NCBI RefSeq assembly: GCF_040054535.1
Contig: NC_090789.1
Coordinates: forward strand, 948,697-1,012,696
DNA from: Antennarius striatus
Lineage: Eukaryota; Chordata; Actinopteri; Lophiiformes; Antennariidae
Direction: 5' to 3'
DNA length: 64,000 nucleotides
Shown here: piece by piece, positions 15,405-52,566 of the stretch
Layout of the letters: every line of letters starts with the position of its first letter
Numbering within the stretch: position 1 is the first letter of the stretch
Notes under the pieces: model-generated
What the model saw: only the letters and a program-made list of their open reading frames with translations
Database searches by the model: none
What the model was told of the DNA's origin: nothing
Position numbers and translations under genes: made by a program

Positions 15405-18099
15405 TCAGCAGGTATCCTCCAGTTCCACATTTTTTGCACCTGTAAAGCAAAACAATCAATTAGAGTCACGTTTTGATCGGGTCTGATCAGGTCATGTTTT
15501 CATCTTTAATCTCTACTTATTATTAAATTCATTTTATTTATACATTATGTATTGCTATAAAAACAATCAGCAGTTTAGAATGAATGAATGAATGACTGAA
15601 TGAATGAATGAAGGTCTGTGGAAGGAAGAACATTCATTAAACTTTATTTAATTTGGACCTGAATACTGGAGGACAGCAGAGAGCGACTGTAATGGTCACG
15701 TGATTAACCGCATCCAATCAGATTGTAGGTCTCCACGTTAACCATCTCCTTGGGATGCTGATGGTTCTGGACCGGACATTTTTTAGTTGAAAGACTAAAA
15801 ATATTTAAGTTTCAAGATTCTGATTGGACATCAATAATCTGATCAGTTCTGAAACAATTGTTGGAAACATATGAACCACTATAAAACACGTTCAGCCTCC
15901 TTTTACTACAAATAACTTCTAATAGTTTCACCGAACATGAGCTGCTTGTTTTTCGCGCCTCCTTGAGGCCTCAAGTGGAACTACAACCAAAATTTGTCAA
16001 TAAAAACGACGCATTCGGATTAAATCCGGATTAAATGTGTGGGTCAAATTGAGAGTGTGTGGTACCGACCTTCAGGACCCGGACCAGATGGGTCGTACTG
16101 TTCAGTGACTGAACCTGCACAGAACAAGCAGAACCAGGAAGAGAGAAAGCACAAACTTCAGCACCTGAACTCTGATTGGACGTCAGTCACGCAGCGAGTG
16201 GCGCCAGATTAGAAAATCTGCAGCTCCTAATGAATTTAAAAAAGCACCACAGAAACATCCCTCCAGCGCGGACAGGATTAACATCACGTCTGTGGTCGAT
16301 GGAGGAAATCAGTCGCTGCTCTGGAGGAATATCGGACGCTCCGTCTCCGCGCGTTCTGGATCACCTGGATGATCTCAGGTGAGCCTAACTCTTTTCTTTT
16401 TAGTGATTATTTTTTTGTGTGTGTCCGCAGTCGGGTGTGTGTGTGTTTTCTCTTCTTATATTTTTATGGATTAGACTTCTATTGTTCTTTATTTCCGTTA
16501 ATGATCCTTTCCGACGCGTCTGGAACTACAGTATTTATTCAATTCGTTGCGCGCCGCTTTTCTGCGATACGGTGGATTTTTGTGAGACGTTTCGTGGATT
16601 AAAACCCTGCTGGAGAAACTGTGGATTATGTTCATGGATTATTTTTGTTTAAATGTTCCAGAATACGCGGTGCCGAGTGCGCGTAACGGGTTATTCCCAG
16701 CACCATCCTGTTAACGGAACATTCGTTCCAAATGAATCCCTTGTGCGCGTTAACGCGACTGAAGTCTGACGTCACAATGACTGAATTTCAATAGAAAATT
16801 ATGAGATTAGAAGAAATTTAAACTAGACTTCAATAAATTCGCTTTCTGACGCTTCATATTTGATCCTTTTGACGTTTTTCTGCGTCGGAAATCCTCAGTT
16901 TGTGACGTGGGCATTTTGTTTTAGACACTAGTCTCTATTCTGGTGTTAGACTTTGTAATCTTCTATACTGGTTTTAAACTGGGTTGAGACTGGTTTGTTT
17001 GGGTCTAGGTTCTGGTTTCAGGCAGGTTGTTGGGTCTCAGGAGTGGATTTGGACGACTTTACCTTATTGACGGGTTCAGTTTCAGGTTGGTTTAATCCAG
17101 TTTAAAACTGTTTTGTTTTAAATTTGATTTCTAATTGTGTTCACATTGGTTTATATACTGATTTGAAACTGGATCTAAATTAGTTCTCAGATTTATTTCA
17201 AGCTGGTTTGGAGACTAATCACAGGTTCGGTTTGGAATTAGAAATGTTCATTTATTTGTTTCAAACTGGGTTTACACTGGTCTCTATTCTGGTCTCAAAC
17301 TGGGGTTAAACTAGACTTAAGATGGTTTTAAACTGGGTTTAGACTCGTTTGTTTGGGTTTAGGTTCTGGCTTCAGACGGATGTTGGGTCTTGGGATTTGG
17401 ATTATGTTACTTTTTCGATGGGTTCACATTCAGGTTTGTTGTTTAATCCAGTTTAAAACAGTTTACTTTAAGACTGGTTGCTAACTGGGTTCATACTGGT
17501 TTATATACTGATTTGAAACTGGATCTGTTTTGGAAGCGGATGACAATCAGTTTGGTTTCAGAATCGTTCCTTTATATCAAACTGGGTTCAGAGTGGGTTG
17601 TGATTTGGTGGTGAACTGGTTTGACTGGTTCATATCTGAACACACTGGTTCCTGAGGACCTCAGACTGGTTTTGCTTCTGGTTTATGTCAAACGTTAAGC
17701 GTTTGTTAAACTTACCAGCAGCCTGCGTGTGACCCGTCGCCGCCGGACGACCTGAAACAGACACACAACGTGTGAACACGCGTGACGAGCCGTGATCAGT
17801 GAACTGAAGGTGATGAGTCATCAGTTTTTTGTCTTAGAGAACGTTTATTGTGAACCAGGTGAGCCGGTCCAGAACCAGCGGTCCAGTTCAACCAGTCTGA
17901 AGGACTTACTGGAGTCCAGTGGAGCTCCTGTTGGGTCTGCTGAAACTACAAACACACACAGCTGTAACACACTTCGACCTCTGACCTCTACGTCAGCCAT
18001 TTGGAGGGCGGGGCTTACCTGTGTCTGCCACCGTGAAACCTGCTGCCATAGTAACCAGGTCAGTGTGGGCGTAACCTCCTGAAGCTGAAAGAGAAGGAC

Positions 18100-18139
<40 letters not shown>

Positions 18140-21100
18140 GCGTGCGTGTGTGTGTGTTCACCTGTGACGTCAAGACTTGATGCTGGAATCAATCATAATC
18201 AGTTTATTTCTCTGATCAATGCTCTTCATCAGTGTATTTATTGATCTATCGATCAGTCTCTCACCTGTGAGGTCAATATGAAGCCTGGTCACAGACTCCG
18301 CCCCACCTGCTGACATCACAATAACACCTGATGACATCACGTCTACACACTGCTCTCACTAGTCGTGATGTCACAGCTCCATCAATTCGTGTTTCATTGA
18401 TTGAACAAATGACTCCTCAGTTTGTGAAGCTGATCAATCAGTAGATCAATAGATCCAATAGATCAATAATGAACATACCTGTTAGATCAGTCTGGAAATC
18501 ACTGGAGGAAACCAGTCGATCTGTCACTGAGAAGAAACCAGTGCTAATTATACATAGTACCGATACTAGTTATAGTACTGCTAGTTATAATACTGTTACT
18601 AGTTATAGTACTGTCACTAGTTTCACTTCTGCTAGTTATAGAACTGCTAAGAGTAGTGCTGTTTGGTAATATTTTTGGTAGTAGTTATATAATACTAGAG
18701 TACTGTTGGTAGTAATATTTTTGGTAGTAGTTATATAATACTAGATAGTACTGTTGGTAGTAATATTTTTGTGAGTAGTTATATAATGCTAGATAGTACT
18801 GTTGGTAGTAATATTTGTACACATTATTAAACCTGCTGTCCAACAAATGAAAAGTAAACATGCTACCTGCGTTAGCATCTGTTAGCAGAGTCAGTCTGTT
18901 TCCTGTAAAACACAAACCGTTAACCAATCACTGACATCACAGACACCGACCAATCAGATGGAAGCTAAACGTCCACCAATCAGGAAGTGTTTCTTCTCAT
19001 TAGTGGTTAGTTTGGATTGAAGTCATGGATTTAGAAACTGGAGAAGCAGTTAGTCGACATCGGGTTGGTCGTACCGTTAGAATCCGACAAGTCGCTGCCC
19101 CCTGGAGGAGAGGAGGAGTAAAAACACGACTTTTATTCTGAAACAGATAAACTCTTTCACAGTAAAGGTCTTCTAATACTTTCAGAGTAAGAGTCTCTTG
19201 TACACTGACCTCCTTGGACCTCAGGGTGGGAGGCGTGGGGGGCAGGACCGGACAGCGACGCCTGGGGGCCTGAGCTCGGAGCGCTGTGTCCTGATTGGTC
19301 CGTACCGACGTGGGCGTGATGGGGAGGATCTTCATCACCAGCAGGACACCGTGAAACGAGAACAAAGATGCCATCTGCAGCCTCTACACCGATGGATGAC
19401 CCGGGGGCCGTTTGCCTTTTAAAAATAGACCACAGGTGTTGTGGGCGGGGCCAGTACCTGCAGGCGTGTCCAGACCGATGCCGGCGTTCTGGTCGCCAAA
19501 CTGAGCTGCTGTCTCACGGGATCTGATCGCTGAAACACGGACAAGATGAGGACCGATCACTAATGATGCTAATCAATATAAAGGTGATCAATTCGGAAAA
19601 TTTAAAAACTGACAAGAAAAAAACACACCTGTAGGGTCCAGCTGAGTGGGCGGAGTCAGGAAACCTATCAGAAAAACAGGAGGTTGAATCTGTGTTCAAC
19701 AACCTCCACTTGACCTCCTGATCACACCTGGATTTACCACACCTGTACCGACCACACCTGTACCGATCACACCTGTCCTAAACACACCTGTACCGACCAC
19801 ACCTGTCCTAAACACACCTGTACCGACCACACCTGTCCTAAACACACCTGTACCGACCACACCTGTACCGATCACACCTGTACCGATCACACCTGTACTA
19901 AACACACCTGTACCGATCACACCTGTACTAAACACACCTGTACCGACCACACCTGTACCGATCACACCCTTCCTATGATGTACACACCTGGGTTGTTAAC
20001 ATCAGCTCCGAGCCCAAACGGATCACCTCCACCTGAAAACAGGAAGAACAGGAAGTCAGGAAATGGAGAGAAAGGACCGAAACAGGAAGTGGACGTGTTG
20101 ATCCGGAGCGCTCACCCATCAGGCCCAACAGGAAGTCGTGACTCGGGGTTCCTGAAAGAGAGGGCGTAGACGAATGACGTCATCCTCTGATTGGTCAGCT
20201 GGTTGGAGAGCTATTATGAGCAACAGACCTCACCTGGACACTCACCTGTGTGATCCAGGTGAGAAACTCCGCCCCCGAATGACCCCACTACACCTGAGAC
20301 AGACAGGTCGACAGACAGGTCGACAGTGATCAGGTGATCACTTCAGTGTTTAAATATTTGAGGTTACCTCCTGAAGCCCCGCCCCCGCCCACCTACCTGT
20401 CTGACTGTCTCCTCCCCCTGCTCCTCCCCCTGCTCCTCCCCCTCCGTTCAGGTGTTTCTGTCCGTTACCTGAAATATCCGCTGTGATGCGTTAATGTTGT
20501 CGTCACGTGTGAATGAGGTATCGATCAGTTGGTATTGATCAGAATAATCAATATATTTACCGCTGGAACCTGAATCCACGCCGTCAGAAGCTGGAAAACA
20601 AACAGAGGCTTGTGATTGGTCAGCCCTCGAACCCATCAGCTCTGAACCTCCTGGATTTACCTGAAAACACCTGAATGTATTGTGATCTTTACCTGGTGGA
20701 GGGGTCTGAGCAGCTGAGGAACCTGCAGGAGGAGAACATCCCATCATCGTGTCCTCACACATAAAACAGTATTGATCGATCGGCAGATATTGATTGTTGA
20801 TTTCTCACCTGTGGACTGAGAGGCTGCTGAGCCGCCTGGACCTCCGGCTGTCAGGAAACACGAAGAAGAAAAGACCAGCTGACCCATGCTTTACTCGTCA
20901 GCCAATCAGCACACAGCTGGCTTCAACCTGGTCATGTGACCTGATGAGGAGGCGTGACGACTCACCTGATGACGAGTCGCCTCCGTGACCTGATTCACAC
21001 AAGAACCAATCAGAGTTTGATATTTGAAACCGACGCCTCGTCTGAACTCCTCCCCCCTCTGCTGTTTACCTGCAGGATGTCCTGCTGTTCCATCAGCTGC

Positions 21101-23631
21101 TCCCCCCCCTGGATGACCGCCGGCGGCTGAAAGGCAACACAAAGCTTCTCCTGATGACGCGTCAACCACAGCGGGGGAAATGTTTGAACGCCTGAGGACT
21201 CACCGCTCGCGTCCTGAAGGACGGGAGAAACACCTGGAGACAAAACCACACCCACCTGGGTCACATGATTGCTTCAAAGCAAAAAAAAACAGCAATGGGA
21301 GCAGATGAGACTCCGCCCATCTGACTCCAGTTTTATTGGACTCTAGGTAACGTGATGGTGACCATCAGGACTACGTTACCCAGAAACCCTGAGGAAACAG
21401 CTGGGATCTGGTCTAGATGGCCCACCTTTCAGGTACTGCCTGTTGTCATGGAAACAGGCTAAGCTAACAGTGTTGTATACGTCGTAGCGTCATTGCTAAG
21501 CATCTCTCAATGCTACATGCAGGCACTTCCTGTTTGTCCTTGAACGTTAGCTGCAGTTTGATTGGCTCTTCCATTCTCGGCTTGTCTGAGCCTGTCAGAC
21601 TGTACTGAGGGAACAGGAACCAGGGGTGTCTGGTTTGGTTCCAGTACATTCTACTGGTCCAGATGCTTTTTTTGGATCTCAATCGATCTCAAACCCCTCT
21701 CCCCCAGCAGGGGGCGCCCCGGCCCCCGTCCCGTCCCGGTGGTAACGGGAGACGGCAGCATCACGTGTTACCAGGCGGATCCTAATCCCTCTGCGAATAC
21801 CAGCCAGTTAATCTGGATTAAACCTGAGCCCAAACCGGAACAAACAAACCCTTCAGGATGCTCGTACCCGATCGGGTGTGGGGGGGGGTTCGACTCACCT
21901 GAACCTCCGGATGTCACCGCCTCCGCCGCCGCGCCGGTGGTCTGCTGGCCGCCGGCCGCGCCTGCTGGGGGGAGGAGGGTGGAGTATCAGGTGACGGCAT
22001 GAATAACGGCAGTGTTTCCAGCAGCGGGGGGGGGGGGACTTCATCAGGACAAGAGGGTCGGCGTTGTTAAAATCTTCATCAGACGTTAAGAACACCGAGC
22101 CTCCTCATCACCTCATGCCTTTAAAAACTTTATTTAAACGTTTATGAACATTTTACGGGGGGGTTCAGCCTCTCACCCTCATCAATCACATCCTGACTCT
22201 GGGAGTCATCATCATCTGAAAGAAAAGACATCCAACATTCATTTATGGCTCGGTTTAAAGACGCTTTAGACATCAGGAAGGTTCCCCTGGTTTATTCCTC
22301 CTGTTTATTCCTGCATCTGTACTTTATTATTGATTATTGATCATGATTAGCGATGATCGTGTTTGCTGATGACTTTCATGACTTTCTTGAGTCAGATATT
22401 GATCATCAGGCAAATGGAAACCAGCAAAGTTTGTTCTTTGTTTGACTTTGAGGACACACACCTACACACACACCTACACACACACCTACACACACACCTA
22501 CACACACACCTACACACACACACACACCCACACACACACACACACACGCGTGCCTACCCTCCTCCTCCACAGACAGCTCCCCCTCCACCTCCTCCGTCAC
22601 CTCCACCTCCACCTCCTCCTCTAAAACACACAACAGGGAGGCTGAAGTCTCGTTTCTCTGCGGTCAAACCGTCGGACGAACGTTTTTTACCCTCGACAGG
22701 AGCCGTAGAAACGCTCGTCAGACCGAAGATGACCACCGACACTATCAGGAGGTTTCTGTCGGAGCAGAGCAGATCAATAGTCACTACCGATCAGCCACTT
22801 TATATTATTATGTTTAAATAGAAGCAATTATCATTAACTAATTGATTTCAAATCACAAATCAGTGACATTTAGTTTCAATCAATACAAAGAACTGACATT
22901 GATAGTAACATCATTAATAATCAATAATATTAGTCAAGTTGAAGATGAGAAGTAAAAGCAACACCAACCAAATTGAATCAATACTTTTAAATACTGCTTA
23001 ACAATACAGATCAATAAAAGTCAATATCATGTAATAGAGATCAATAACAGTCTTCAATAATTGATGCAGATATAAAATAGTAAATATCAATCAATATTGA
23101 TCAATAAGAGTCTGACTCAATGCTGATTACTATCAGCATTAACAGTAACCGTCGTTATCAATCAGCGCTGATCGATTAGTTCTGAGCAGCCAAAGACACA
23201 AAGTATGAAGCTCAAATCTGATTGGTTTGTTCAATTAATCAATACATCTGATTGGACGGATGAGCGGTCATTCAAAACGGGAAAAACAACAACTAATCCG
23301 TCCAATAAGAGAGAAGTCAAAGCAGCCAATCAGAGTGACGCTGGTGTCCAATCACTGCTGTGTAGCAGTTATATATTAGTACTAATTATTAGTACTACTG
23401 CTTGGTATTAATATTACTACAGTACTGTGACATTATTACACAGGTACACAGTATTACAGTACTGGTATTACCCCAGTTAGTTTACAGACAGTTTACTTCA
23501 TACAGATTTATTTGAAGTAGAACACAAGAAAGATACTGATGCAGTAGTAGAATTATAATTAACTAATGCAGTAGTTTATATAGAGTAATTGTACACGCAG
23601 TATCGTGATGAAGTACTCACAGTGGCAGCAT
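15405..23631 (-). CDS. Gene A: secreted starmaker-like protein made of about 28 tiny exons
   Basis: Coding exons in transcript order: 23631-23621, 22755-22691, 22620-22558, 22215-22177, 21961-21899, 21126-21070, 20989-20966, 20847-20809, 20722-20693, 20590-20561, 20480-20397, 20293-20246, 20151-20116, 20032-19988, 19664-19629, 19529-19458, 19269-19210, 19101-19075, 18902-18867, 18526-18479, 18306-18265, 18182-18162, 18084-18076, 18039-18019, 17936-17910, 17751-17716, 16114-16070, 15439-15405. Every internal exon is a multiple of three and phase 1-1, giving about 382 residues. The N-terminus MLPLNLLIVSVVIFGLTSVS is a signal peptide, followed by APVEG. Next come acidic segments (EEEVEVEVTEEVEGE, DDDDSQSQ), then Gly/Ser/Ala/Thr/Pro-rich segments (GHGGDSSSG, ASDGVDSGSSG, GGGGAGGAGGG). 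No cysteine-rich module or membrane segment is seen. The 9-nt exon and the last two exons are the least certain: other acceptors give a longer, more basic C-terminus (stop near 15268). Function inferred only by likeness to starmaker. Confidence 0.6.
16910..17660. repeat. Degenerate GT-rich repeats in gene A intron
   Basis: Diverged repetition of words such as aactgggtt, actggttta and ggtctaggttctggttt over about 700 bp. Two larger blocks, about 16960-17160 and 17320-17520, look like an ancient direct duplication (gggttgagactggtttg...gggtctaggttctgg against gggtttagactcgtttg...gggtttaggttctgg). No exon is seen in it. The 16150-16900 stretch also lacks recognisable exons. Confidence 0.5.
18101..18158. 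repeat. (GT)n microsatellite in gene A intron
   Basis: Uninterrupted GT run followed by GC/GT steps, immediately next to the 21-nt exon at 18162-18182, so on the minus strand it begins a few bases after that exon's donor. Confidence 0.85.
18590..18830. repeat. Minisatellite with tagtactgttggtagtaata units
   Basis: Three to four tandem copies of a roughly 45-bp unit (words ttggtagtagttatataat, actagatagtactg, gtaatattttt), preceded by a looser tagttatagtactg repeat from about 18560. Intronic in gene A. Confidence 0.75.
19733..19975. repeat. Minisatellite of splice-donor-like units in gene A intron
   Basis: About 24 tandem 10-bp half units (cacacctgta + ccgac/ccgat/ctaaa). On the minus strand each unit reads ACAG|GTGTG, a splice-donor-like word, and the array is open in one frame (GTGVxGTGVF). 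It lies beside the 45-nt exon at 19988-20032, whose own donor is CCAG|GTGTG. Confidence 0.85.
22448..22549. repeat. (CA)n / cctacacacaca microsatellite
   Basis: Tandem cctacacacaca 12-mers passing into a pure CA run. The array stops just beside the acidic 63-nt exon at 22558-22620. Confidence 0.85.
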
Positions 23632-25087: not shown

Positions 25088-28000
25088 AACCCTAAACCTA
25101 AGACCAACTTTGACCCTAACCCGTAACATGAATCCGTAACCCCAAAATTAACACTAACCTTAATACTAACCTTAACCCTAAAAATAGCCTTAAACCTAAC
25201 TCTTATCCTGAGCGTAACTCCAATGCTTTACTTAACCCTAACCCTAACCTTAAACGTGATCGTACAACTAAACCAGATCGCAGCTCAAAACCCACCCGTA
25301 ACATTAACCCTAAACTTACCCCTAGCCCTACCCCTAACCAAAAACCTTACGCCAACCATAACCTTAAACTAACTCAACCTTGACCTCACACTTAATTCAA
25401 GCCTTAACCCTGTCCCTAACCCTCATTCTTACCCCTGACCCTAACACTATCCATGAACCTAACCTCCACCCTACCTCTAACCCCAACCCTAACATGAACC
25501 TTAACCCCAACCCTAACCCTAACCCCCACTGTGACCCTAAACGTTACCCTAAACCTAAGCATAACCCTGACCCTTTTACTAACCTTAACCGCAACCCTTA
25601 CCCTAACCCTAAATCTTACCCTAACCCTTAACCTAACCCTAATCATAACCCTAATCCCAATCCTAACCCTAACCCTTACCCTAACCCTGATTCCAAAACC
25701 TAACTCTAGCCTAAGATAACCCTAACCTAACCCAAACCTAACCCTAAACTAACCCCTAACCTATCCTGAATCCAACCCTAACGTAACCCTAACCCCAATG
25801 CTAATCCTAACCCTAACCTAAACCGAAGCGAAATCCTAACTCTAACCTAACCCAACCCTAACCCTAGCCTTAAACGTAAGCAAAAGCCCAACCCTAACCT
25901 TAACCTAAGCCTAAACCTAAGCAAAATCCCAACCCTGACCCCAACCTGAACCTTAAACTAACTCAAACACTAACGCTATCCTGAATTCAACCCTAACCTA
26001 ACCCTAACGCTAATCCTAACCCTAACCTAACCCTAACCCTAAACTAACCATAACCCTAATCCTATCGTGAATCCAACCCTAACCTAACCCAAGCAAAATC
26101 CCAACCCTAACCCTAACCGAACCCCAACCCTAACCCTAACCTAAACCTAAACAAATCCCTACCCTAACCCTGACCCCAACCCTAACCCTAAACTAACCCT
26201 AACCCCATTCAGAATCCAACCATAATTTAACCCTAACCTCAACCCTAATCCCAATCCTAACCCTTACCCTAACCCTAACCTAAGCAAAATCCCAACCCTA
26301 ACCTAAGCCCAACCCTAACCTAACCCTAACCCAAACGCTAATCCAACCCTAACCTAACCCTAACCCGAAACAAACCCTAATCCTAACCCTATCCTGAATC
26401 CAAACCTAACCCTAACCCAAACGCTAATCCTAACCCTAAACTAACCCTAACCTTAATCCTATCGTGAATCCAACCCTAACCTAACCCTAACCTAAACCCA
26501 AGCAAAATCCCAACCCTAACCCTAACCAAACCCCAACCCTAACCCTAACCTAAACCTAAACAAAATCCCTACCCTAACCCTAAACTAACCCTAACCCCAT
26601 TCATAATCCAACCATAATTTAACCCTAACCTCAACCCTAATCCCAATCCTAACCCTAACCCTAACCCTTACCCTAACCCTGACCCCAACCCTAACAATAA
26701 ACTAACCCCAACCCTAACCATATCCTGAGTCCAACCCTAACCTAAACCTAATCTCAACGCTAATCCTAACCCTTACGAAACGCTGACCTAACCCATACCC
26801 TAACCCTAACCTAAATCTAAGTAAAATCCCAACCCTAACCCTAACCTAAGCCCAACCCTAACCTTAACCTAAACCTAAGCAAAATCCCAACCCTAACCTA
26901 AACCCTAACCCTAACCTAACCCTAACCCAAACGCTAATCCAACCCTAACCTAACCCTAACCCGAAACTAACCCTAACCCTAACCCTATCCTAAATCTAAC
27001 CCTAACCTGACCCTAACCTAAACCTGAGCAAAATCCCAACCCTGACCCTGACCTAAGCCCAACCCTAACCCTAATTTAACCCTAACCCAAACGCTAATCC
27101 AACCCTAACCTAACCCTAACCCAAAAGTAACCCCAACCCTAACCCTAACCCTATCCTGAATCTAACCCTAACCTAAACCTAAGCAAAATCCCAACCCTAA
27201 CCTAAGCCTAATCTCAACGCTAATCCTAACCCTAACCTAAATCTAAGTAAAATCCCAACCCTAACCCTATCCTAAACCCAACCTAACCCTAGCCTAAACC
27301 TAAACAAAATTCCAACCCTAACCCTGACTCCAACGCTAACCCCTAAACTAACCCTATCCTGAATCCAACCCTAACCTAAGCCTAACCTCAACGTTAATCC
27401 TAACCCTAACCTAAAGCTAACCTAACCCCAACCCTAACCCTAACCTAAACCAAAGCAAAATCCCAACCCTAACCCTAACCTAAACCTAAGCAAAATCCCA
27501 ACCCTAACCCTGACCCCAACCCTAACCCTAAACTAACCCCAACACTAACCCTAAACTGAATCCAACCCTAACCTAACCCTAACCCAAACGCTAATCCAAC
27601 CCTAACCCCACCCTAACCCTAACTTGAAACTAACCCCAACCCTAACCCTATCCTGAATCCAACCCTAACCTAAACCTAAGCAAAATCCCAACCCTAACCA
27701 TAACCTAAACCTAAGCAAAATCCCAACCCTAACCCTGACCCCAACCCCAGTTTAGGATTAGGGTTAGGTTAGGATTAGGGTTGGCGTTAGTTTCAGTTGG
27801 GGTTAGGGTTAGGTTTGGAGTTGGGTCAGGGTTAGGGTTGGGTTAGGGTTAAGGTTGGGATTTTGGTTAGGTTTAGGTTAGGGTTAGAGTTAGGTTAGGT
27901 TATGGTTATGGTTGGGTTGGGGTTAGGTTAGGGTTGGGTTAGGGTTGGGTTAGGGTTAGGGTTGGAATTAGGTTAGGGTTAGGGGTGGCGTTAGTTTCAG

Positions 28001-31000
28001 GTTGGGGTTATGGTTGGGTTAGGGTTAGGGTAGGAGTTGGGTAGGAGTAGGGTTAGGGTTGGGATTTTGGTTAGGTTAGGGTTAGGGTTGGGGTTAGTTT
28101 CAGGTTGGGGTTAGGTTTACGTTAGGGTTGGGGTTAGGGTTGGGATTTTGTTTAGGTTAAGGTTAGGGTTGGGATTAGCGTTGAGGTTAGGGTTAGGGTT
28201 GGGGTTATTTTAGGGTTAGGGTTGGGGTTGAGGTCAGGGTTGGGATTTTGTTTAGGTTTAGGTTAAGGTTAGGTTGGTCTTAGGATAGGGTTAGGGTTGG
28301 TATTTTGCTAAGGTTTAGGTTAGGGTTGTGGTTAGTTTAGGGTAAGGGTTGGGGTCAGGGTTAGGGTTGGGATTTTGTTTAGGTTTAGGTTAGGGTTAGG
28401 GTTGGACTTAGGTTAAGGTTAGGGTTGGGATTTTGCTAAGGTTTAGGGTACGGTTGGGGTTACGTTAGCGTTAGGTCAGGGTTAGGATTAGCGTTGAGGT
28501 TAGGGTTAGGGTTGGGTTTAGTTTAGGGTTAGGTGTGGGATTTTGCTTAGATTTAGGTTAGTTTTAGGTTAGGGTTGGATTCAGGATAGGGTTAGGGTTG
28601 GACTGTAACCCTAACCTAACTCCAACCCTGACCTAAACATAACCAAAATCCCAACCTTAACCCTAACCCAACCCTAACCCTAAACCTAACCCTAACCCTA
28701 ACCTAACCAAAATCACAACCCTAACCTAACCAAAATCCCAACCCTAACCCAAACCTAACCCTAACCCGAAACTAACGCCAACCCTAACCCTGACCTAACT
28801 CCAACCCTAACCCAACCCTAACCATAATCCCCAACCTGAAACCAATGCCAACCCTAACCCTAAACTCACTCTAACCCTAACCCTACCCTACTCCTACCCA
28901 ACTCCTACCCTAACCCTCACCATACCTGAAAATAACGCTAACCCTAACCTAACCAAAATCCCAACCCTAACACTAACCCTAACCCTTACCTAATACCAAC
29001 CCTAACCCTAACCTCAACCTAACAAAAATCCCAACCCTAACCCTAACCCTAAACCTTACCCTAAACCCAACTCTAACCTAACCCTAACGCAAATCCTAAC
29101 CCTAACCCTATCACGAATCAAACCTAACCAAAATCCCAACCCTGACCCTAACCTAAACCCAACCCTAACCCTAATTTAACCCTAACCCAAACGCTAATCC
29201 AACCCTAACCTAACCCTAACCCGAAACTAACCCCAAGCCTAACCCTATCCTGAATCCAACCCTAACATAACCCTAACCTAAATTTAGGCAAAATCCCAAC
29301 CCTAACCCTAACCTAAGCAAAATCCCAACCCTAACCCTATCCTAAACCCAACCTAACCGTAACCTAAACAAAATCCCAACCCTGACCCCAACCCCAACCA
29401 TACCCCTAAAATAACCCCAACCCTAACCCTAACGCTAATCCCAACCCTAACCTTGACCTAAACCTAACCCTAACCTAAACCTAAACAAAATCCGAACCCT
29501 AACCCTAACCTAAACCTAACCCCAACCTGAAACTAACCCCAAACCTGAATCCAACCCTAACCTAACCCTAACCCAAACGCTAATCCAACCCTAACCCCAC
29601 CCTAACCCTAACTTGAAACTAACCCTAACCTAACCAAAATCCCAACCCTAACCCTAACCTAATCCCACCCCTAACCCTAACCCAAGCAAAATCCCAACCC
29701 TAACCCTAACTTTTCCCAACCCTAACCTAAACCTAAGCAAAATCTCAACCCTAACGCTATCCTAAGCCCAACCTAACCCTAACGTAAACCTAAACAAAAT
29801 CCCAACCCTGACCCCAACCCCAACCCTAACCCTAAAATAACCCCAACCCTAACCCTAACCTCAACGCTAATCCCAACCCTAACCTTAACCTAAACCTAAC
29901 CCTAACCTAAACCTAAACAAAATCCCAACCCTTACCCTAACCTAAACCTAACCCCAACCTGAAACTAACCCCAACCCTAACCCTAACCTAACCAAAATCC
30001 CAACCCTAACCCTAACCTTACTCCTACCCAACTCCTACCCTAACCCTAACCCAACCATTACCCCAACCTGAAACTAACGCCAACCCTAACCCTAACCTAA
30101 TTCCAACCCTAACCCTAACCCAACCCTAACCCTAACCTGAAACTAATGCCAACCCTAACCCTAACCAAAATCCCAACCCTAACCCTAACCCCAACCCTAA
30201 CCTAACCAAAATCCCAACCCTAACCCTAACCTTACTCCTACCCAACTCCTACCCTAACCCTAACCCAACCATAACCCCAACCTGAAACTAACGCCAACCA
30301 TAACCCTAACCTAATTCCAACCCTAACCCAACCCTAACCCTAACCTGAAACTAACGCCAACCCTAACCCTAACCAAAATCCCAACCTTAACCTTAACCCC
30401 AACCCTAACTTAACCAAAATCCCAACCCTAACCCTAACCTTACTCCTATCCAACTCCTACCCTAACCCTAACCCAACCATAACCCCAACCTGAAAGTAAC
30501 GCCAACCCTAACCCGTACCTTACTATACCTAACCCAACCCTAACCCTAACCTGAAACTAATGCCAACCCTAACCCTAACCAAAGTCCCAACCCTAACCTT
30601 AACCCCAACCCTAACCTAACCAAAATCCCAACCATAACCCTAACCTTACTCCTACCCAACTCCTACCCTAACCCAGCCATTACCCCAACCTGAAACTAAC
30701 GCCAACCCTAACCCTAACCTAATTCCAACCCTAACCAAACCCTAACCCTAACCTGAAACTAACGCCAACGCTAACCCCAACCAAAATCCCAACCCTAATC
30801 CTAACCCCAACCCTAACCAAACCAAAATCCCAACCCTAACCCTAACCTAACCCAACCTTGACCCCAACCTGAAACTAACGCCAACCCTAACCCTAACCTA
30901 ATTCCAACCCTAACCCTAACCCAACCCTAACCCTAACCTGAAACTAATGCCAACCCTAACCCTAACCAAAATCGCAACCCTAACCCTAACCCCAACCCTA

Positions 31001-38620: not shown

Positions 38621-39728
38621 CGGGTTAGTCAGGGTTGGGATTTGGGTTAGGTTAGGTTTAGGGTTAGGGTTCGGATTTGGTTAGGTTTAGGTTAGGGTTA
38701 GGATATGAGTTAGGTTGGGATTAGGGTTAGGTTACGGTTAGGATTAGTGTTGGGGTGAGGTTAGGTTAGGTTTGATTCGGGACAGGATTAGGGTTAGGGT
38801 TGGAATTTTTCTTAGGCTTAGGTTAGGGTTAGGTTAGGGTTAAGGTCGGAATTTTCGTTAGGTTAGGGTTGGCGTTTGGGTTAGGGTAAGGGTTGGGATT
38901 ATGGTTAGGGTTAGGTTAGGGTTGGATTCAGGGTTAGGGCTGTGGTTAGTTGAAGGTTAGTGTTGGGGTTGGTTAGTTTCAGGTTAGGGTTGGGCTTAGT
39001 TTTGGGGTTAGTTTAAGGTTAGGATTGGGATTAGGTTTAAATTGGGGTTAGGGTTGGAGTTAGGGTTTTGGTTGGGATTTTGCTTAGGTTAGGGTTAGGG
39101 TGGGGGTTAGGTTAGGTTAGGGTTAGGGTTGATGTTAGTTTCAGGTTGGGGTTAGGGTTGGGTTAAGGTTAGGATTGGGATTTTGGTTAGGTTAGGGTTA
39201 GGGTTGGAGTTAGGTTATGATTAGGGTTAGGATTAGGATTAGCATTGGGGTTAGGGTTACGTTAGGTTTAATTCGGGATAGGGTTAGGGTTAGGTTTAGA
39301 TTGGGGTTAGGGTTAGGATTGATCTTTAGGTTAGAGTTAGGTTTAGGTTCAGATTAGAGTTAGAGTTAAGTAAAATGCAAAACGTAGTTCCTTAATAGGG
39401 ACTAAAAAGTGCACTGGTATATGGGGGATGGCAGTGAGGTCATCTTAAAATTCCATTGGTTAAACCAAGAGCTTACAACAATTAAAATTAATTGAAGATC
39501 ATGTAAAATTGGGAGGGGGAGAAGAAACGTTATTGAAGTGAGGAAAAATGATTCAATGGATTTTAAAGTTTGAAAAGCACTTTTATAAAAACAAAAGGGA
39601 GCAGGGAAGAGCTGGATAAAATAATGGAATTAAATAATGATTAAAGTTGTCCACAATAAAAATACATAAATGATAAAGTTGTGGGTTTAGGGACAATAAA
39701 GGTGAAAGAGGATGGTGGAAGTGAATGC

Positions 39729-42340: not shown

Positions 42341-45300
42341 TTAGCTAGCTGTTGTTGTCATGGCAACATTATTCCTCTGTGGGGTTGGCTCTGATGGGGA
42401 GAAAACACAGAATCAGCCTGAAACACCAGTTCAGGTTTAGGGGATGTTCCCAGTACAGAGTGGGAGGATACCTGGAGTCGCCGAGCTCCTACAGGTCAGA
42501 GGCGGAGCATCTAAATCATCCCTGAAAGAAAAAAACACCTGGAGTCACTTTGGTTTGGGTGGTTGAAGCTGATTGGCAGTGAGACTGTGATGTCATCAGA
42601 AGGTTACCATTGGGGTCGATGGGAATGGAATCACCAGGCATACCTAGTTGATCTGAGTTGGCAATAGCCGATGTTCCTGTTAGAGACAAATGGAAAACAT
42701 AAAAAAAAGGAACAAGGCAGACAAAGATGGCAACATCCCATGAAGGGTAGGTCAGGGTACCCTGAAAGTAGTACCTGACATTGACCATAGATCAAAGCTA
42801 GATCAGAGCACCAGCTTTGATCTATTGTCTTACTCACACTGGCCTCCCTCATTTTTCTATCTTTTCTGGTTCCTGAGTGTACAACAGTTGAAGTTTGACC
42901 TTGACCTAGTTTTCACAAGGTCATCATCTCATTTTCATCCCCTCTGCCGCCCGAGCAATGTGCTTTTTGTTTCATCTTTCTATCTGCGAAGATATGTGGT
43001 GGACCAACGAAAGAACGGAGTAACGAACGAACGACGAACGAACGGACGAACACACGAACACACGAACACATGAACACTGACAATTACGATACATCACCGC
43101 TTTGAAGCGGGATGTAACTATTTAAGCTTAAGTTATTCTAAAAATGTCATGGTATCTTTTTGTTCTGAATTTATGAACTCAACTTTCATGACCGTAGAGG
43201 TTTTACTGACATGTGATTCACCTGCATTGGACTCTTCGGTCTTACCTTCACTGGAGTCCAAAGGGTCGTGGTTCTCTGAGTTAGCGTCGCTCCCGGGCTC
43301 AGTTAACCCACCGTCTCCGTTTACTGGTTCATCTTCCATCAGGCTGCCGTTGGCGTCTTCAGTTTCCTCCTCTGGACCCATGGCCCCGACGTCAGGGCCC
43401 TCACTGTTAGCCTCCTCCAGACTGACTTCCTCTGCTGTTGTGTCTTCAAGGTCAGAGTCTTTATAAGATTGTTCTTCCTCTTCTTTAGAATCAGACACAT
43501 CAACAGCATCAGACTCATCCTCAGACTCATCCTCAGACTCATCCTCAGACTCTTCATCAGACTCTTCCTCAGGCTCATCCTCAATCTCATCCTCAGTCTT
43601 ATCCTCAGACGCTTCCTCAGGTTCATCTCCAGGTTCCTCCTCAGACTCTTCCTCAGGATCATCCTGAGAATCACCCTCAGCCTCATCCTTAGGCTCTTCC
43701 TCAAACTCTTCCTGAGACTCATCCTCAGTCTCCTCCTGAGGCACATCCTCAGTCTCATCCTCAGACTTTTCTTCAGGGTCATCCACAGGCTCATCCTCTG
43801 ACTGAGGGTCTTTTTCTTCTGTTGATGCTGATTTGTCATCAGGATCATCATCAGGAGCATTGTCATTCCCATCCTTTGACTCAGGATCATCCTCAGCATC
43901 TTCCTCATTCTTATTTTTGACCTCAGGTTCATCCTCATCCACAGACTCAGGATCATCCCCGTTCTCACCCCCATCTTCACTCTCATTCTCATTCTCAGAC
44001 CCAGACTCAGATTCAGAACCAGACTCAGACCCAGAGTCAGACTCAGACCCAGAGTCAGACCCAGAGTCAGACTCAGACCCAGAGTCAGACCCAGAGTCAG
44101 ATTCAGACCCAGACTCAGACCCAGAGTCAGACCCAGACTCAGACCCAGACTCAGACCCAGATTCAGACCCAGACTCAGACCCAGACTCAGACCCCAACTC
44201 AGACCCAGACTCAGGATCGGTATCAGGTTCAGGCTGAGGCTGAGGATCAGATTCAGGCTGGCTTCCACCAGGGCCTACACGATTAGCACTTTCGACGGCG
44301 TTGCTGACATCATCTGGCACCGAGCCACCGTCTGAGGATTAGAGAGTTTGAGCTCTTGTCAGTTATTTGTCACAACATGCTAAATATCAGCAAATAGAAG
44401 CGTTGGTCACGCGCTTTCAATCAGTCCTGCGTTATCGAGCATTTTAAGACAAAACCCTTACTTTGGTAACGGATATTATTAGTTCTAAAGAGCCACATTT
44501 GAATTTGGTTTCCGCGACACCAGAACACGGCTGGATCCAGCAAGAGGTAGTTGTTGGAATGTGATTCAGCTTCATCCTCAGAGCAGGAGACTCCCTGGAC
44601 TCTGGACAAACACGAGTCGGTGTCAGTGGACTCTCCTGGGACTCCTCTTCAACAATAGACCATCAAAGGTCCATTCATGGACTCACAACCAACAGCAACA
44701 CCCAACAGACGCAAGATAGACAGTATGTCGGCAGCGACAGACAGACAGACAGGTAGTTAGACAGGCAAACAGACAGGTGGAAAGACAGGTGAACAAACAG
44801 GTAAACAGGCAGGCAGAAAAAGTAAACAGACAGGTAAACATAAAGGTAGTCAGGTAAACAGACAGGGAAACAGACTGGGAAAAGGTAGGTAGACAGGCAA
44901 GTTAACAGACAGGTAAACAGACAGGTAGACAGACAGGTAAACAGACAGGTAAACAGACAGGTAGACAGACAGGTATTACACAGGTAAATAAATATATAGG
45001 GAGAAGGACAGAAAGGTGAAAAGATGGGTTGACAGACAGGTAAACAGAGAGACAGGTAGACAGAGAGGTAAATAGACAAACCAAAGACAGATAAACAGAC
45101 AGATAAACAGACAGACAGGTACAGAGACAGACAGGTAATTGTATAGGTAAACAGACAGCTAGACAGACACATTGACAGAAAAGTAAAAATACAGACAGAC
45201 AGACAGACAGGTAGACAGACACATAGAAAAGTAAAAGCACAGACAGACAGAGACAGACGGGTAAACAGACAGCTAAGTAGGCAGGTAGACAGACAGACTG

Positions 45301-45558
45301 ACCGGTGAATGGATAGACAGAAAAACAGACAGGTAAACAGACGGGTAAAGAGAGAGACAGATAGACAGAGAGGTGAACAGACAGACAGGTAGATAAACAA
45401 AGGTGAATAGACAGGTAGGAAGACAGACAGACAGACAGACAGACAGGTAAATAGATAGGTATACAGACAGGTAAACAGACAGGTAAAGAGAGAGACAGAT
45501 AGACAGAGAGGTGAACAGACAGACAGGTAGATAAACAAAGGTGAATAGACAGGCAGGA

Positions 45559-45591
<33 letters not shown>

Positions 45592-45716
45592 GTTAAATAG
45601 ACAGGTACACAGTCAGACAGACAGACAGAGAGACACAGTTAAAAAGACAACTAAATAGATGGGTTGACAGACAGGTTAACAGACAGAAAGGTAATCAGAC
45701 AGGTAGTTAGACAGGC

Positions 45717-45751
<35 letters not shown>

Positions 45752-45860
45752 AACATAGCTAGATAGGTAGAAGGACAGACAGGTAAACAGATGGGTTGAC
45801 AGACAGGTACATAAATAGGTAGAAGGACAGAGAGGTAGAAGGACAGGTAGTTGGACAGGC

Positions 45861-45893
<33 letters not shown>

Positions 45894-47066
45894 GGCAGAC
45901 AGGCAAACAGACAGGTTAATAGACAGGTAAAAAGACACAGGTAAACACAGGAAAACAGACAGACAGGTAAGTAAACAGACAGGTACACAGATAGATAGAA
46001 AGTCAGACAGGTAGGTAAACAGACAGGTAAAAAGTTAGACAGGTAGAAGGACAGACAGGTGAAGTGATGGACAGGTATGTTAACAGACAGGTAAACATGT
46101 AAACATGAGATGTTTGTGTTTGTTTACGTTTGTTTACACGTCTTCTGTTTATATTCTATCATTTGTTTTTATTGGCACTGAATTTTCAGACATTTGTTCT
46201 GAAACATCAACGTAAACAACAACAACAACAACAACAACAACACACCTGATGTTTGTCAACACCTGAATTCTGAAACAGGGGTTATTGGTAGTTATTGGTG
46301 GACTGATTGATGATGTCATCACTTACCAGGGAGTGGAACTGCAAAGCAAACGGCAGCGAGAGCAATGAGCCACAACACAACACACCTGGAGGACAGGAAC
46401 ACGTGATCAATAGTCTTATCTATCATTAATAATTAATCATTGATAACAAGCATCAATAATCAACCTTAATAATCAGTAATAATCAGCATCACTGATAATA
46501 CTGTAATCAGTATTAATCATCATCAATCATATTAATCATAATTAAACAGCATCAGTCAGCATAATAATCAATCAGTATCTATCATGGACATCATCAATCC
46601 CCACAGACACACCGGAGGGAAGGAAACGAGTGAAACCTGTTTTCTTACGTTTCCTCTGCAAAGAAAGAACACAAAGAGTCTTTTCTTTTCAGACGGATGG
46701 AGAGAAGCTAAAAGACGACAGAACAGAGCCGAGGTTCACCGGAGAAACGGAAACGCCTGCAAAGGATGAACGTTTCCTGAAGCTGCGCATCAAAAAAAGA
46801 GAAACTTTTCCTAAAACTGAGGTAAACATTCACAAAGAAATGAAGAAAATGTCAGCAAACATGGAAGAAAACCTGATCTCAAAGTTTCCCAAATTTTCCT
46901 AAAGTTTCCCAAAATTTCCCGAATTTTCCGAAAGTTTCCCAAAATTTCCCAAATTTTCCTAAAGTTTCCCAAAATTTCCCGAATTTTCCTAAAGTTTCCC
47001 AGAATTTCCCGAATTTTCCTAAAGTTTCCAACTCTTGGTGGCAGGACAAACTCACCGCTGCAGCAT
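42341..47066 (-). CDS. Gene B: starmaker-like acidic secreted protein
   Basis: Coding exons in transcript order: 47066-47056, 46385-46327, 44331-43246, 42676-42608, 42510-42472, 42390-42341. All phases close (phase 1 at each junction after exon 2), giving about 437 residues. MLQRCVVLWLIALAAVCFA is a signal peptide. The large third exon (362 codons) begins DGGSVPDDVSNAVESANRVG, passes through QPQPEPD, then a Ser/Glu/Gly/Asp repeat (SGSESGSES, SDSGSESDS), then a long Asp/Glu-rich tract with EEESEEE- and DEPEEESDEE-like units, and ends DPLDSSEG before a strong donor (GTAAGA). Later exons add TSAIANSDQLGMPGDS, DAPPLTCRSSATP and EPTPQRNNVAMTTTAS. Extreme acidity with Ser sites for phosphorylation matches calcium-mineral matrix proteins; in fish starmaker shapes otolith crystals. 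The start (MLxR) and acidic repeats match my memory of starmaker. DSPP-like composition is probably convergent. Exact orthology uncertain. Confidence 0.7.
42783..43110 (-). repeat. Dispersed repeat with AGGTCA half-sites, gene B intron
   Basis: Inverted relative to copies at 3170-3650 and 61535-61800. Ends carry tgatcta/agctttgat words and a cgctttgaagcgggatgt block also seen, inverted, at 61535. TGACCTTGACCT at 42896-42907 is the complement of the half-site pair in the other copies. A tandem cgaacga/cacgaaca run lies at about 43010-43075. Confidence 0.65.
44700..46090. repeat. (GACA)n-type microsatellite in gene B intron 2
   Basis: About 1.4 kb of imperfect agacaggtaaacagacagg repeats, with purer (gaca)n runs near 45425, 45560, 45715 and 45860. 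A sub-block around 45350-45420 is repeated near 45490-45555, showing internal duplication. Minus-strand frames through it (Cys/Leu/Ser/Val) are artefacts. Confidence 0.92.
46878..47030. repeat. aaagtttcccaaaatttcc tandem repeat in gene B intron 1
   Basis: About four 38-bp units (aaagtttcccaaaatttccc + gaattttcct) directly next to the 11-nt first coding exon of gene B. Confidence 0.85.
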
Positions 47067-48410: not shown

Positions 48411-48416
48411 TTTATT
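48411..48416 (-). terminator. Candidate gene C poly(A) signal
   Basis: AATAAA on the minus strand about 140 bp after the gene C stop. Another AATAAA lies just upstream in the transcript and a third near 48193, so the 3' end may vary. Confidence 0.5.
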
Positions 48417-48426
48417 CCTACATATA

Positions 48427-48552: not shown

Positions 48553-48554
48553 TG

Positions 48555-49331
48555 CTATATGTGGCGCCGGTTGGTCCTTTGTCGTCTCTTGGCGGCTCGG
48601 CTCCGCACCTGAACTTTTGGCCGAGGATTGATCACCTGAGCAGGGAGGGCGGGGCTCTGAGGTAAGTGGGCGGGGACTTTGACATTGTGGGCGGGGTTTG
48701 GGGGCAGGATGTTGGAGGTCTGAGGTTTGGTGGAGCGAGGGCTGAACTTCTTCCTCCCTACTTCTTCAGAGTCTGAGCTCTCATCCTCATCTTTGTCTGA
48801 AAGGATGAATAAAAGATGGAAAAAGTTAGTTACAAACTAGAGATGTAAAAATAAGAAAAGAATTCAACCAAATTATACAAAACATTTAGTCCTGAAAACT
48901 TCAAGCTGCTCATTTTCAGACAGCTTGATCCAGAACCTGTAGGTGGCACTGTGAGGGTGTTGTTACCCTGTTCATATTCTTCCTCTTCATTCATTCCTTC
49001 TTTTCTTTCTTTCTACTCGTTCGCTCTTTCTACACAGAAACTACGGACCACAAACCAGAGATCAGAGAAGTTCTGTGTGTTCTGGTTCTGTGTGTTCTGG
49101 TTGTCTCACCGTCTCCTTGCTCCGCACTGTTTGCAGCAGGCGGTTCTGAAACCATCAGAAAAAACATTCATCATGATCAAAATCAGGACCAGAACAGAAT
49201 CAGATTCAGAATCAGAACAGATTGCGGATCAGGTCTGATCGTTCAGAGGTGATGATGTAACAGACTTACCAGCTGCTGTCACCTGATTGGCTGCTGCAGC
49301 TGAATAAATCAAAACAATGGAATCAAATTAA

Positions 49332-49364
<33 letters not shown>

Positions 49365-49480
49365 TTGTGTATTGTCTTCTTACTGTCAGTGATCTCTGAA
49401 CTGGAGCTGCTGGATTCTGAAACATATTGTTAGTGATTTTATTATTTTTTGGGCACACACACACACACACACGCACGCAC

Positions 49481-49527
<47 letters not shown>

Positions 49528-52321
49528 GCAGGTGTACAGATGAGTGACTGTGACATTTCATCAAATCTATAGAGCTGTGACAATCTGACATCATCATCAT
49601 CATCATCAGCTCCTACCTGACGGTCCAGCTCCTTGACTCTGGGGCTCATCTGGAATCAGTACAAACAAACGATTTCAACCATCTTTTATTAGATACCTGT
49701 CTTCACTGTGGGGTGTGGGGGTGGGGCTACTGGTGAGGTGGGGCATTGGAGCATGGGATTATGTGGGTGTGGGATAGGGATGGGTGGGGTGTGTGTGTGG
49801 GGGGCAGCTTCAGGTTTCTGGTTCATCCTGGTTCACAGTCCGTCACTCTGGTGGTTTGCAGGAACTTAACTGGTGTCTCCTGGTTCCACCACTAGATGTC
49901 AGTGTAAATAGGAAACAACAACCCTGACCCTTCACGAACACCTTGATATTGACCTTTGACTCTTCATGACATGTTGTTGGTCAGCTGTAAATAAATAACT
50001 CTGCTGTTTTCTCTTCTCACAATCGTTATAAACGTTTATTGATCTGTGATGTTATTGATCTGTGATGGAGACATTCTCCTGTGAGGTTGGAAATATCACT
50101 GCTACTCAATGCTACTGGTTTCACTTCTGTCATCACAAAAATGTCAAATAAATTGTTAAATCAGTGTAAAACCATCAGAAATCACAGATCTGGGATTATC
50201 TACAGAAACTGCTTTAACCTGATGAACTGATGAAGAAATTGAGGAAGACCAGTTTAGCAAAGGATCGTTCAAGACAGCCAGTAGAGGGCAGTAATGCACC
50301 ACTGTAGCTTCTAGTCTTTCTTACCCAGAGAATAAGAGAAACCGCCACCCGTCTTCATGTTGTTGTTGTCATAGTGACGGAATACTGCAGTATTTCCATC
50401 ACATAGTAACATTCATGTACTGACCTACTGTCTAGCATAATGCTAAGGAAGTGCAGATGGAGTCATTGGCTAGCTGAGTTTAGAAGCTAATGTAAAATAA
50501 CTCAATATCATGCAAACCAGTGAAAAGCGCTGAGTCACCTCTAACGTCTCAGCGACTTGCTAATTGATCATGTGATAATGAAGTTGAAGCTCCATAAACG
50601 GGTGAAGCGCTGGCTAGCATTAGCTGAAGCTGCAACGGTGGACGTTTCTTTCAGGCTATCAAACAGGATATGTGATGTATGACCAGGTGTGTCCTCATGT
50701 GATGTATGACCAGGTGTGTCCTCATGTGATGTATGACCAGGTGTGTCCTCATGTGATGTATGACCAGGTGTGTCCTCATGTGATGTATGACCAGGTGTGT
50801 CCTTAGGTGAAACGTGTTGGAAAAGCTCCCTTTATATGTGAAGCCTTACCAGGTTGGTCTGGAGAGACGGCATTCAGACTCTCTGAAACAGACATCACAA
50901 CGTTTCTATAAGACAACAGTGTGTGGGACCTGATTAATCCCAATTGGACAGGAGTTTTAATCGGGATTGAAACTCCTGTCCAATCCAAGAAGTCCAAGAA
51001 GTGACTTCTTCCTGCACAGTTTGTCCAACCATGAAATCAAACACTCGTAATCATCAATATGCAGACGATACACAACTATTTGTCTTTACTCCATTATTGT
51101 TTACTCTGACAGTAGAGAAAACATGTACAGTAGGTTCTACATGTAGAATGTAGATAAAATGTACAGAAAACATTCTACATGTAGAACTGAAATGACAAGT
51201 CATGCTTTAATGACCAATCATTAACAACGACATAGATTGTTGACATTAATGTATAAGAGTCACCTGTTGGGGCTTCATCAGATGTGGAGTCTTTATCTGA
51301 CAGGTGAGATACATGTGAGACGGGTGAGACAGGTAACTCTTATTTTATGAATCATGACATACTGTATGTACTTTACCTGTTGACATTGTTTGTATTCCAG
51401 TATCTGTAAAGAAATTGATCACCAACAAATCAGTCAATCTATCTGCAAATCAAACTGGTCGCCCTGACGTGGAAGACTCCGTCAGGTTGGACTCACCGTT
51501 GGCGTCCATGTCTCCCTCAACCAGTAGGACGAACAAGGACAACAGAAGGACAACGTTCCTGCAACAAACACATCCTTCAGTCTAACAGCAGTCTCTACTT
51601 ATTTTATCTTTGACTCTTCAACCACACCTACTCGGTGCATGATATCCTGTGATTAGCTAGTTTCATATGTGTAAGCTAAGCGAAGAACAAAAGTACATGT
51701 CGGTGATTCTACAGAAAAGGGCTGTCAGAAAGTCGTAAATTGAACTCTTCACATTTGGAGACAATTTCTTGGCGCTTTGAGGTCTCCTCAGACAAATAGC
51801 TGTTCTGATGACATCATGTTTATGAAAGCTTTGAGTGGGTTTCTTGACATTCAAGAGTATACAAGCTACTGCAACCTTCTATAAGATAGCATGCTGTTCC
51901 CACTCGGCAGTCACCAAGATCCAGAACCATCACTGACAGATATACCAGCATCCATACAAGTACCAGTATCCAGTCCAGTACTCCGTAGAAGTACCCAGGT
52001 CAGTACCCAAACCAGTACTCAAAGTAATACGCATACCAGTAGCAGTACCCCTACCAATACCCATTTAGTTAAATCAAACATTGATCCTGATAGGAAACAT
52101 CTACATAGTATGTGTAGAGCTTTGAGATACAGATGAAAAAAGCACGAGGACCAATCTGATCCCCTCCTATGAACCTCACCTTCCCTACCACATGACACTA
52201 GCAGAATACACACAGGTAGTCCTTGATGACCTCTGACACTCAAACACACAAATGACTTCATGTCATGTGACTTCATGTAAACCATCGTTTCTCAGAGGCG
52301 GTGGACATACCTGGTTAGCAT
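48555..52321 (-). CDS. Gene C: starmaker-like secreted protein with acidic mini-exons and basic tail
   Basis: Coding exons in transcript order: 52321-52311, 51558-51497, 51403-51377, 51296-51264, 50882-50850, 49649-49617, 49416-49384, 49299-49270, 49145-49110, 48796-48555. Phases close at about 178 residues; every internal exon is phase 1-1 and 27-36 nt. MLTRNVVLLLSLFVLLVEG is a signal peptide, then DMDANG. Mini-exons give DTGIQTMSTG, DKDSTSDEAPTG, ESLNAVSPDQPG, DEPQSQGAGPSG, ESSSSSSEITD, AAANQVTAAG and EPPAANSAEQGDG. The last exon starts acidic (DKDEDESSDSEEV) and turns basic (VQVRSRAAKRRQRTNRRHI). Six exons are 33 or 36 nt long, suggesting exon duplication. It shares strand, first-exon length, start residues and phase plan with genes A and B. 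A charge-split protein with an acidic middle and basic tail could bridge an acidic matrix or mineral. Function is inferred. Confidence 0.68.
49333..49523. repeat. Two inverted GT/CA microsatellites flanking a gene C exon
   Basis: A GT run at 49333-49361 and CA runs at 49454-49522 bracket the 33-nt exon at 49384-49416 in opposite orientation. Their transcripts could pair and loop out the exon. Confidence 0.7.
50672..50808. repeat. 27-bp tandem repeat in gene C intron
   Basis: Five near-identical copies of a 27-bp unit containing gatgtatgaccaggtgtgtc and ctcat. The high identity suggests a young, variable array. Confidence 0.92.
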
Positions 52322-52359
52322 GATGCTGTGAGGACGGACAGGTCCCTGGGTCAGCACGT

Positions 52360-52500
52360 CAGGACGACAGACAGGTAACAGATAGGTAGACGGAGGGGTA
52401 GACGGACAAGTAATGGACTGATAGAGGGACAAGTAGACAAAGAGGTAGACGGACAAGTAATGGACAGGTAGACAGACAGGTAACGGACAGGTAACAGACA
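52360..52500. repeat. acaggtaacggacaggtagac repeat in gene C 5' UTR
   Basis: Imperfect gacaggta units, related in sequence to the large GACA array in gene B, lying between the gene C TATA element and its ATG. Confidence 0.6.
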
Positions 52501-52559
52501 GCTAGGTGGTCTCTCAGAAGTGCACTGCAGGAATCTTCTAAGTTTGATTGTCTGGTGAC

Positions 52560-52566
52560 TTATATA
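52560..52566 (-). promoter_or_regulatory. TATA-like element upstream of gene C
   Basis: TATATAA on the minus strand about 240 bp upstream of the gene C ATG. It is farther away than in genes A and B, so the 5' UTR may be longer or hold an intron. Confidence 0.45.

Follow-up and report, generated by a model that had tools for sequence, protein, structure and literature searches.

Three neighbouring predicted genes for secreted low-complexity proteins in Antennarius striatus and their possible kinship

The predicted genes

The 64,000 nucleotides (nt) of Antennarius striatus DNA considered here, referred to as the window (NCBI RefSeq assembly GCF_040054535.1, NC_090789.1; positions 948697-1012696 of contig 14 in the 42 contigs and 548 megabases of the searched genome), carry three adjacent predicted genes, A, B and C, that lie between hsf1 on one side and a BTB/BACK gene on the other. 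All three are located on the minus strand, in the order that a first-pass annotation made from the letters had given, and the presence of three neighbouring genes for secreted low-complexity proteins is supported. In each, a possible reading starts with an 11-nt coding segment and continues in a hydrophobic exon of 65 (A), 59 (B) or 62 nt (C) that leaves in phase 1.

Gene A (15405..23631, minus strand) is modelled with 27 coding exons and 382 amino acids (aa). Its 5' module (22691..23631) joins the 11-nt coding segment 23631-23621 to the 65-nt signal-peptide exon 22755-22691, followed by 22620-22558, 22215-22177, 21964-21899, 21233-21204, 21126-21070, 20989-20966, 20847-20809, 20722-20693, 20590-20561, 20468-20397, 20293-20246, 20151-20116, 20032-19988, 19664-19629, 19529-19458, 19101-19075, 18902-18867, 18526-18479, 18306-18265, 18182-18162, 18084-18019, 17939-17910, 17751-17716, 16114-16070 and 15439-15405. 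All 24 exons between the second and the last are in phase 1-1 and measure 21 to 72 nt. A TATA-like box is found 81 nt before the ATG, and poly-A-type signals follow the stop at 286 nt (ATTAAA) and 793 nt (AATAAA). The best chain of short phase 1-1 exons scores 155.6, compared with 9.3 +/- 4.5 and a highest value of 19.4 in 40 first-order Markov sequences. When half-overlapping scanning windows of 184 kilobases (kb) were ranked by this chain on both strands, with those containing more than 200 N excluded, the windows of gene A took ranks 1 and 2 of 76 (157.6 and 137.4; next 50.6). Chains in phases 0 and 2 score high too (89.7 and 96.5), because the splice sites are the same ones. A frame-blind test of strong acceptor-donor pairs, which left out the minisatellite region 19720-19975, found lengths divisible by 3 in 17 of 24 pairs at a threshold of 5 (P = 2e-4), in 11 of 16 at 6 and in 8 of 12 at 7; the antisense counts are 3/10, 2/6 and 1/2. 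Gene A thus lies far above chance in all three of these tests. It is near certain that A is a gene, and its support comes from the later exons, not from the 5' module.

Some acceptors in the model of gene A are weak or have near alternatives (e.g. 20468 or 20480; 18182). The best chain differed from the final model in having a longer third exon and the earlier acceptor at 20480, and it included two stretches, 21458-21426 and 19269-19210, that were excluded from the model. One intron of the gene contains a 15-base-pair (bp) minisatellite (19723-19968) whose units have in-frame AG/GT splice-like borders and so mimic exons; exons drawn from it were discarded as repeat artefacts. A chain search run across the whole 184 kb merged neighbouring genes and was uninformative.

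Gene B, also on the minus strand, allows two models. The five-exon model (42511..47066; 399 aa) uses 47066-47056, 46385-46327, 44331-43246, 42676-42644 and 42521-42511, and has two phase 1-1 exons, an acidic one of 1,086 nt and one of 33 nt, before a short last exon. In the three-exon alternative (43133..47066; 422 aa), the acidic exon is read on to a stop at 43133 and none of the exons is in phase 1-1. The five-exon model is tentatively favoured, since a strong donor (10.6) follows the acidic exon and a strong acceptor (9.5) precedes the 33-nt exon. A TATA-like box lies 65 nt before the ATG, and the two alternative stops are followed by poly-A-type signals at distances of about 442 and 1,067 nt. 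B is very likely a gene, and it is carried mainly by its first two exons: the 5' module (46327..47066), composed of the 11-nt coding segment 47066-47056 and the 59-nt signal-peptide exon, ranks first in both of the scans described below. A genome search with exon 3 gave 21 matches among the best candidates listed: the exon itself and 20 others, all weak (36 bits or fewer).

Gene C (48555..52321, minus strand; 179 aa) is predicted to contain 10 coding exons: 52321-52311, 51558-51497, 51403-51377, 51296-51264, 50882-50850, 49649-49617, 49416-49384, 49299-49270, 49145-49110 and 48796-48555. Between the second and the last lie seven exons of 27 to 36 nt, every one of them in phase 1-1. The 11-nt coding segment 52321-52311 and the 62-nt signal-peptide exon form the 5' module (51497..52321); a TATA-like box (52559..52566, minus strand) lies 245 nt before the ATG of this segment, and a poly-A-type signal is found 139 nt after the stop. 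The phase 1-1 chain scores 36.9 against 3.8 +/- 4.0 and a highest value of 15.6, again in 40 first-order Markov sequences, and the best window of gene C ranks only fifth among the 76 real windows and ninth among 178 shorter ones, some of the competing windows containing other genes. The frame-blind test is weak for this gene: lengths divisible by 3 are found in 9 of 14 (P = 0.017), 5 of 8 (P = 0.088) and 2 of 4 pairs (P = 0.41) at thresholds 5, 6 and 7, and in 0/8, 0/6 and 0/2 antisense pairs. The first two exons mainly carry gene C, and there is a high probability that it is a gene. A genome search with its DNA returned 15 matches, namely itself and 14 short ones, the best of which (123 bits, 73 nt) falls in a CA-repeat stretch, and a recent exon duplication within the gene is unsupported. 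Protein C was the only one of the three compared with NCBIfam and PDB sequences, where the best E-values were 0.74 and 0.46.

The shared 5' design

A scan of 184 kb on both strands for an 11-nt ATG segment joined to a hydrophobic exon yielded 12 combinations. Those of B (31.2) and C (28.8) rank first and second, followed by exon 1 of gene C with another exon (25.5) and by an unrelated pair on the plus strand (24.4). The controls, six second-order Markov sequences, returned 0, 1, 2, 0, 5 and 3 combinations, with a highest score of 22.8. Another scan covered 224 kb and admitted first segments of 5-30 nt, at a score of at least 24 and under stricter hydropathy; the 11-nt reading of B is again at the top (31.2). 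A fourth gene, D, which had been raised as a possibility, finds no convincing case in either scan. At a score of at least 24, the 224-kb scan gave no 11-nt combination besides those of B and C. In the 184-kb scan, three more minus-strand combinations, of which two fall within a telomere-like array and the third (18.8) at -49839, as well as four on the plus strand, were judged without gene modelling, and no convincing continuation was seen in any of them.

On the basis of the shared 5' design, common descent of A, B and C is somewhat favoured. The explanation proposed here stands, as a whole, at about an even chance. According to it, A, B and C would be same-direction neighbours with upstream TATA-like boxes, each encoding a secreted, largely disordered matrix protein. 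Their common 5' design would have been inherited from one duplicated ancestor, and their bodies would have diverged while symmetrical exons were gained, lost or replaced without a break of the frame. In its favour are the consistent phases and splice sites of the gene models, the high scores of A, the top-ranking 5' modules of B and C, the biased compositions, the charge and CK2-type sites of B, the lack of Pfam families and the CaCO3 function of Stm, Stm-l and OMM-64 described below.

Several observations weigh against this explanation. No sequence likeness was seen between the three proteins, nor did a comparison of the 33-nt exons of B with those of C give a consistent one (one of 10 pairs at 0.04). 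Secreted proteins often have a phase-1 intron directly behind the signal peptide, so the argument from shared phase is weaker. The 5' module of gene A, with a score of 18.7, lies inside the range of the Markov controls and would not stand out alone, and the unrelated plus-strand pair exceeds the highest control. The signal-peptide exon of gene C pairs slightly better with an alternative 29-nt first coding segment (53072..53100, minus strand; 30.7) than with the 11-nt one (28.8), which lowers the estimate for common descent a little; a start with the 11-nt segment is nevertheless probable. The first-pass annotation had assigned all three genes an 11-nt first segment and a signal-peptide exon of 59-65 nt, and this layout is possible in each, with these two qualifications for A and C. 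Its further statement that only phase 1-1 exons follow exon 2 applies to the middle exons of A and C; gene B has two such exons at most or none, and its phase 1-1 chain (10.1 vs 5.7 +/- 4.5, highest 21.2, in 40 first-order Markov sequences) is not above chance. In addition, splice sites were scored with hand-entered matrices, hydropathy served to recognize signal peptides and the cleavage sites were placed by eye.

These points bear on a rival account, in which the three secreted genes have no kinship, became neighbours by accident and share a 5' design through convergence and model choice. The frequency of phase-1 introns after signal peptides, the ordinary score of the A module, the rival first segment of C and the differing compositions of the proteins would all fit this account. 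Against it speaks that three neighbours on the same strand each have an 11-nt ATG segment starting with ML, and that the two best modules of this kind in 184 kb are those of B and C. Such an accidental neighbourhood is regarded as somewhat improbable.

The predicted proteins

The bodies of the three proteins differ, as the first-pass annotation had claimed: B is acidic, A is Gly/Ala/Ser-rich with an acidic head, and C is acidic in one half and basic in its tail. Mature B, with cleavage placed after residue 19 by eye, consists of 24.8% Glu, 17.9% Ser and 14.9% Asp (58% Glu/Ser/Asp), contains zero Cys and has a net charge of -145 in the 422-aa and -143 in the 399-aa model. It is enriched in CK2-type S/T-x-x-D/E sites (44 vs 33.9 +/- 3.9 in shuffles) and depleted in S-x-E sites (7 vs 17.9 +/- 3.3). 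Mature A contains 18.6% Gly, 12.2% Ala and 10.6% Ser, with an isoelectric point (pI) of 4.05, and is enriched in neither type of site (CK2, 7 vs 10.4 +/- 2.7; S-x-E, 2 vs 2.3 +/- 1.4). The first part of C is acidic (pI 4.05) and its last 72 residues are very basic (pI about 12); S-x-E sites are enriched (4 vs 1.4 +/- 1.1), and CK2-type sites number 6 vs 5.1 +/- 1.9. A Pfam search found no family for A, B or C at E-values up to 1, the queries for A and B being an earlier 376-aa draft and the open reading frame of the acidic exon, respectively.

Acidic secreted matrix proteins encoded in clusters are also known from the SCPP/SIBLING genes (DSPP, DMP1, osteopontin), and a relationship of A, B and C to these genes would agree with their clustering, secretion and acidity and with the S-x-E enrichment of C. 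In SCPP genes, introns are in phase 0, the first exon is untranslated and the signal peptide lies within exon 2. In contrast, the introns predicted here are in phase 1 (phase 1-1 for 24/24 middle exons of A and 7/7 of C), the ATG is placed in the first modelled exon, to which a non-coding exon further upstream may have to be added, B is poor in S-x-E sites and A has about as many as its shuffles. Provided that the models are correct, an SCPP origin is contradicted by the intron phase and by the coding first exon, and it is considered extremely improbable.

By its composition, B most likely acts as a secreted polyanion that would bind calcium and mineral surfaces. Here, Asp and Glu together with CK2-type phosphorylatable Ser might hold calcium and mineral faces and thereby steer crystal nucleation and growth, as the ear-stone proteins Starmaker (Stm), Stm-l and OMM-64 are reported to do. 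A, with its Gly/Ala/Ser-rich body and acidic head, and C, with its acidic half and basic tail, are by their composition likely matrix partners of such a B-like polyanion. Stm, Stm-l and OMM-64 are reported to function in CaCO3 formation (PMC4260845; PMC9496343). Zebrafish Stm is also present on the egg envelope and is required for its knob-like structures (PMC8812434), and an egg-coat role is therefore a live alternative to the ear. The site of action may be the inner ear, the teeth or the egg coat.

Relation to Starmaker

A secreted, strongly acidic Ser/Asp/Glu-rich body, with the signal peptide judged by hydropathy, is found in B and in half of C and is absent from A. Like B, zebrafish Stm is a secreted, acidic and disordered protein; it differs in length, with 613 aa compared with 399 or 422 aa for B and 179 aa for C. 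In zebrafish, a stm mutation that spares the first 76 residues maps to exon 7 (PMC8812434). With exon 7 reached by about codon 77, the 5' part of stm would consist of several short exons, an arrangement that the model of C may resemble. In the predicted models, codon 77 falls in the seventh exon of C, the fifth of A and the third of B, and the match of C would be a chance one if the zebrafish numbering includes a non-coding exon. Medaka Stm-l is likewise acidic and disordered, contains zero Cys and has a secreted role (PMC4260845); two of its end sequences, taken from printed primers, were looked for by eye in the three gene models and do not occur there. It is reported to agree with stm in genomic structure while lacking any sequence similarity to it (PMC4260845), so similarity cannot serve as a test for starmaker. 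The intron phases, first exon and neighbours of zebrafish stm were not found in the parts of the literature that were searched.

These comparisons bear on the idea, raised in the first-pass annotation, that the cluster may be the percomorph starmaker locus. In that case B, judged by its composition, or C, judged by its exon layout, would be orthologous to zebrafish stm and medaka stm-l, and the remaining genes would be tandem paralogs. The acidic Ser/Asp/Glu body of B, the short symmetrical exons of A and C, the exon 7 mutation of stm and the gene structure that Stm-l and stm share would be consistent with this assignment. However, composition singles out B and exon layout singles out C, and the composition of B is matched equally well by rainbow trout OMM-64, a highly acidic, Asp/Glu-rich and disordered otolith protein (PMC9496343). 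The starmaker locus is a possible identity for the cluster, though less likely than not.

Genomic setting

The left neighbour of the cluster is the end of hsf1 (12581..14182, plus strand; Pfam Vert_HS_TF, E 3.2e-20), and the right neighbour is the BTB/BACK gene (58392..58889, minus strand), with both Pfam domains above the cut-off. On the left flank, the frames are in order alpha-tubulin-like (assigned by reading alone), TCP-1/cpn60 chaperonin, RIM-type zinc-finger, WD40-like (Pfam matches below the cut-offs; presumably bop1), LDLR-A (which we take to be lrp12 or lrp12-like) and hsf1. On the right flank, the BTB/BACK gene is followed by MINDY, PI4KB and an RFX gene. One further flank frame, among seven searched in one Pfam run, had no match. 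A search of the same genome for a duplicated region found three relatives of the RIM-type exon on other contigs and zero relatives elsewhere for an exon of the lrp12-like gene.

Several repeats and one retroelement-like sequence accompany the locus. Between A and B lies a degenerate telomere-like array of 14 kb (25401-39370), with 344 TTAGGG and 377 CCCTAA units and an orientation that switches several times. An intron of hsf1 (12716-13588, plus strand) consists mostly of an 18/45-bp minisatellite; its 873 nt are divisible by 3 and are without a stop in the frame of both flanking exons, so that retention would add 291 residues. On contig 14, 30220 to 27101 bases before the window begins, a 1,040-aa open reading frame resembles, by reading alone, a retroelement endonuclease and reverse transcriptase, and related pieces occur about 57-59 kb to the right of the window end.

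Implications

A gene family with a role in ear stones is plausible. In its broadest form, it is hypothesized that teleosts possess a matrix-gene family apart from SCPP that would be defined not by sequence but by the 5' module, an 11-nt segment with a signal-peptide exon, and by frame-neutral phase-1 mini-exons. This family would include Starmaker, and the undescribed neighbours A (Gly-rich) and C (acid-base) would help to build the same mineral matrix. The 29-nt segment of gene C, scoring above the 11-nt one, makes a family with a fixed 5' module less probable, and the proposal in this form is rated as rather unlikely. Mineral-matrix proteins, including those of ear stones, can evolve too quickly for sequence to trace them; medaka Stm-l and zebrafish Stm are reported to be without sequence similarity (PMC4260845). 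If a gene-structure signature composed of a tiny first segment, phase-1 mini-exons and fixed neighbours is reliable, relatives would be findable in any fish genome and separable from SCPP genes, and A, B and C would represent three candidate genes.

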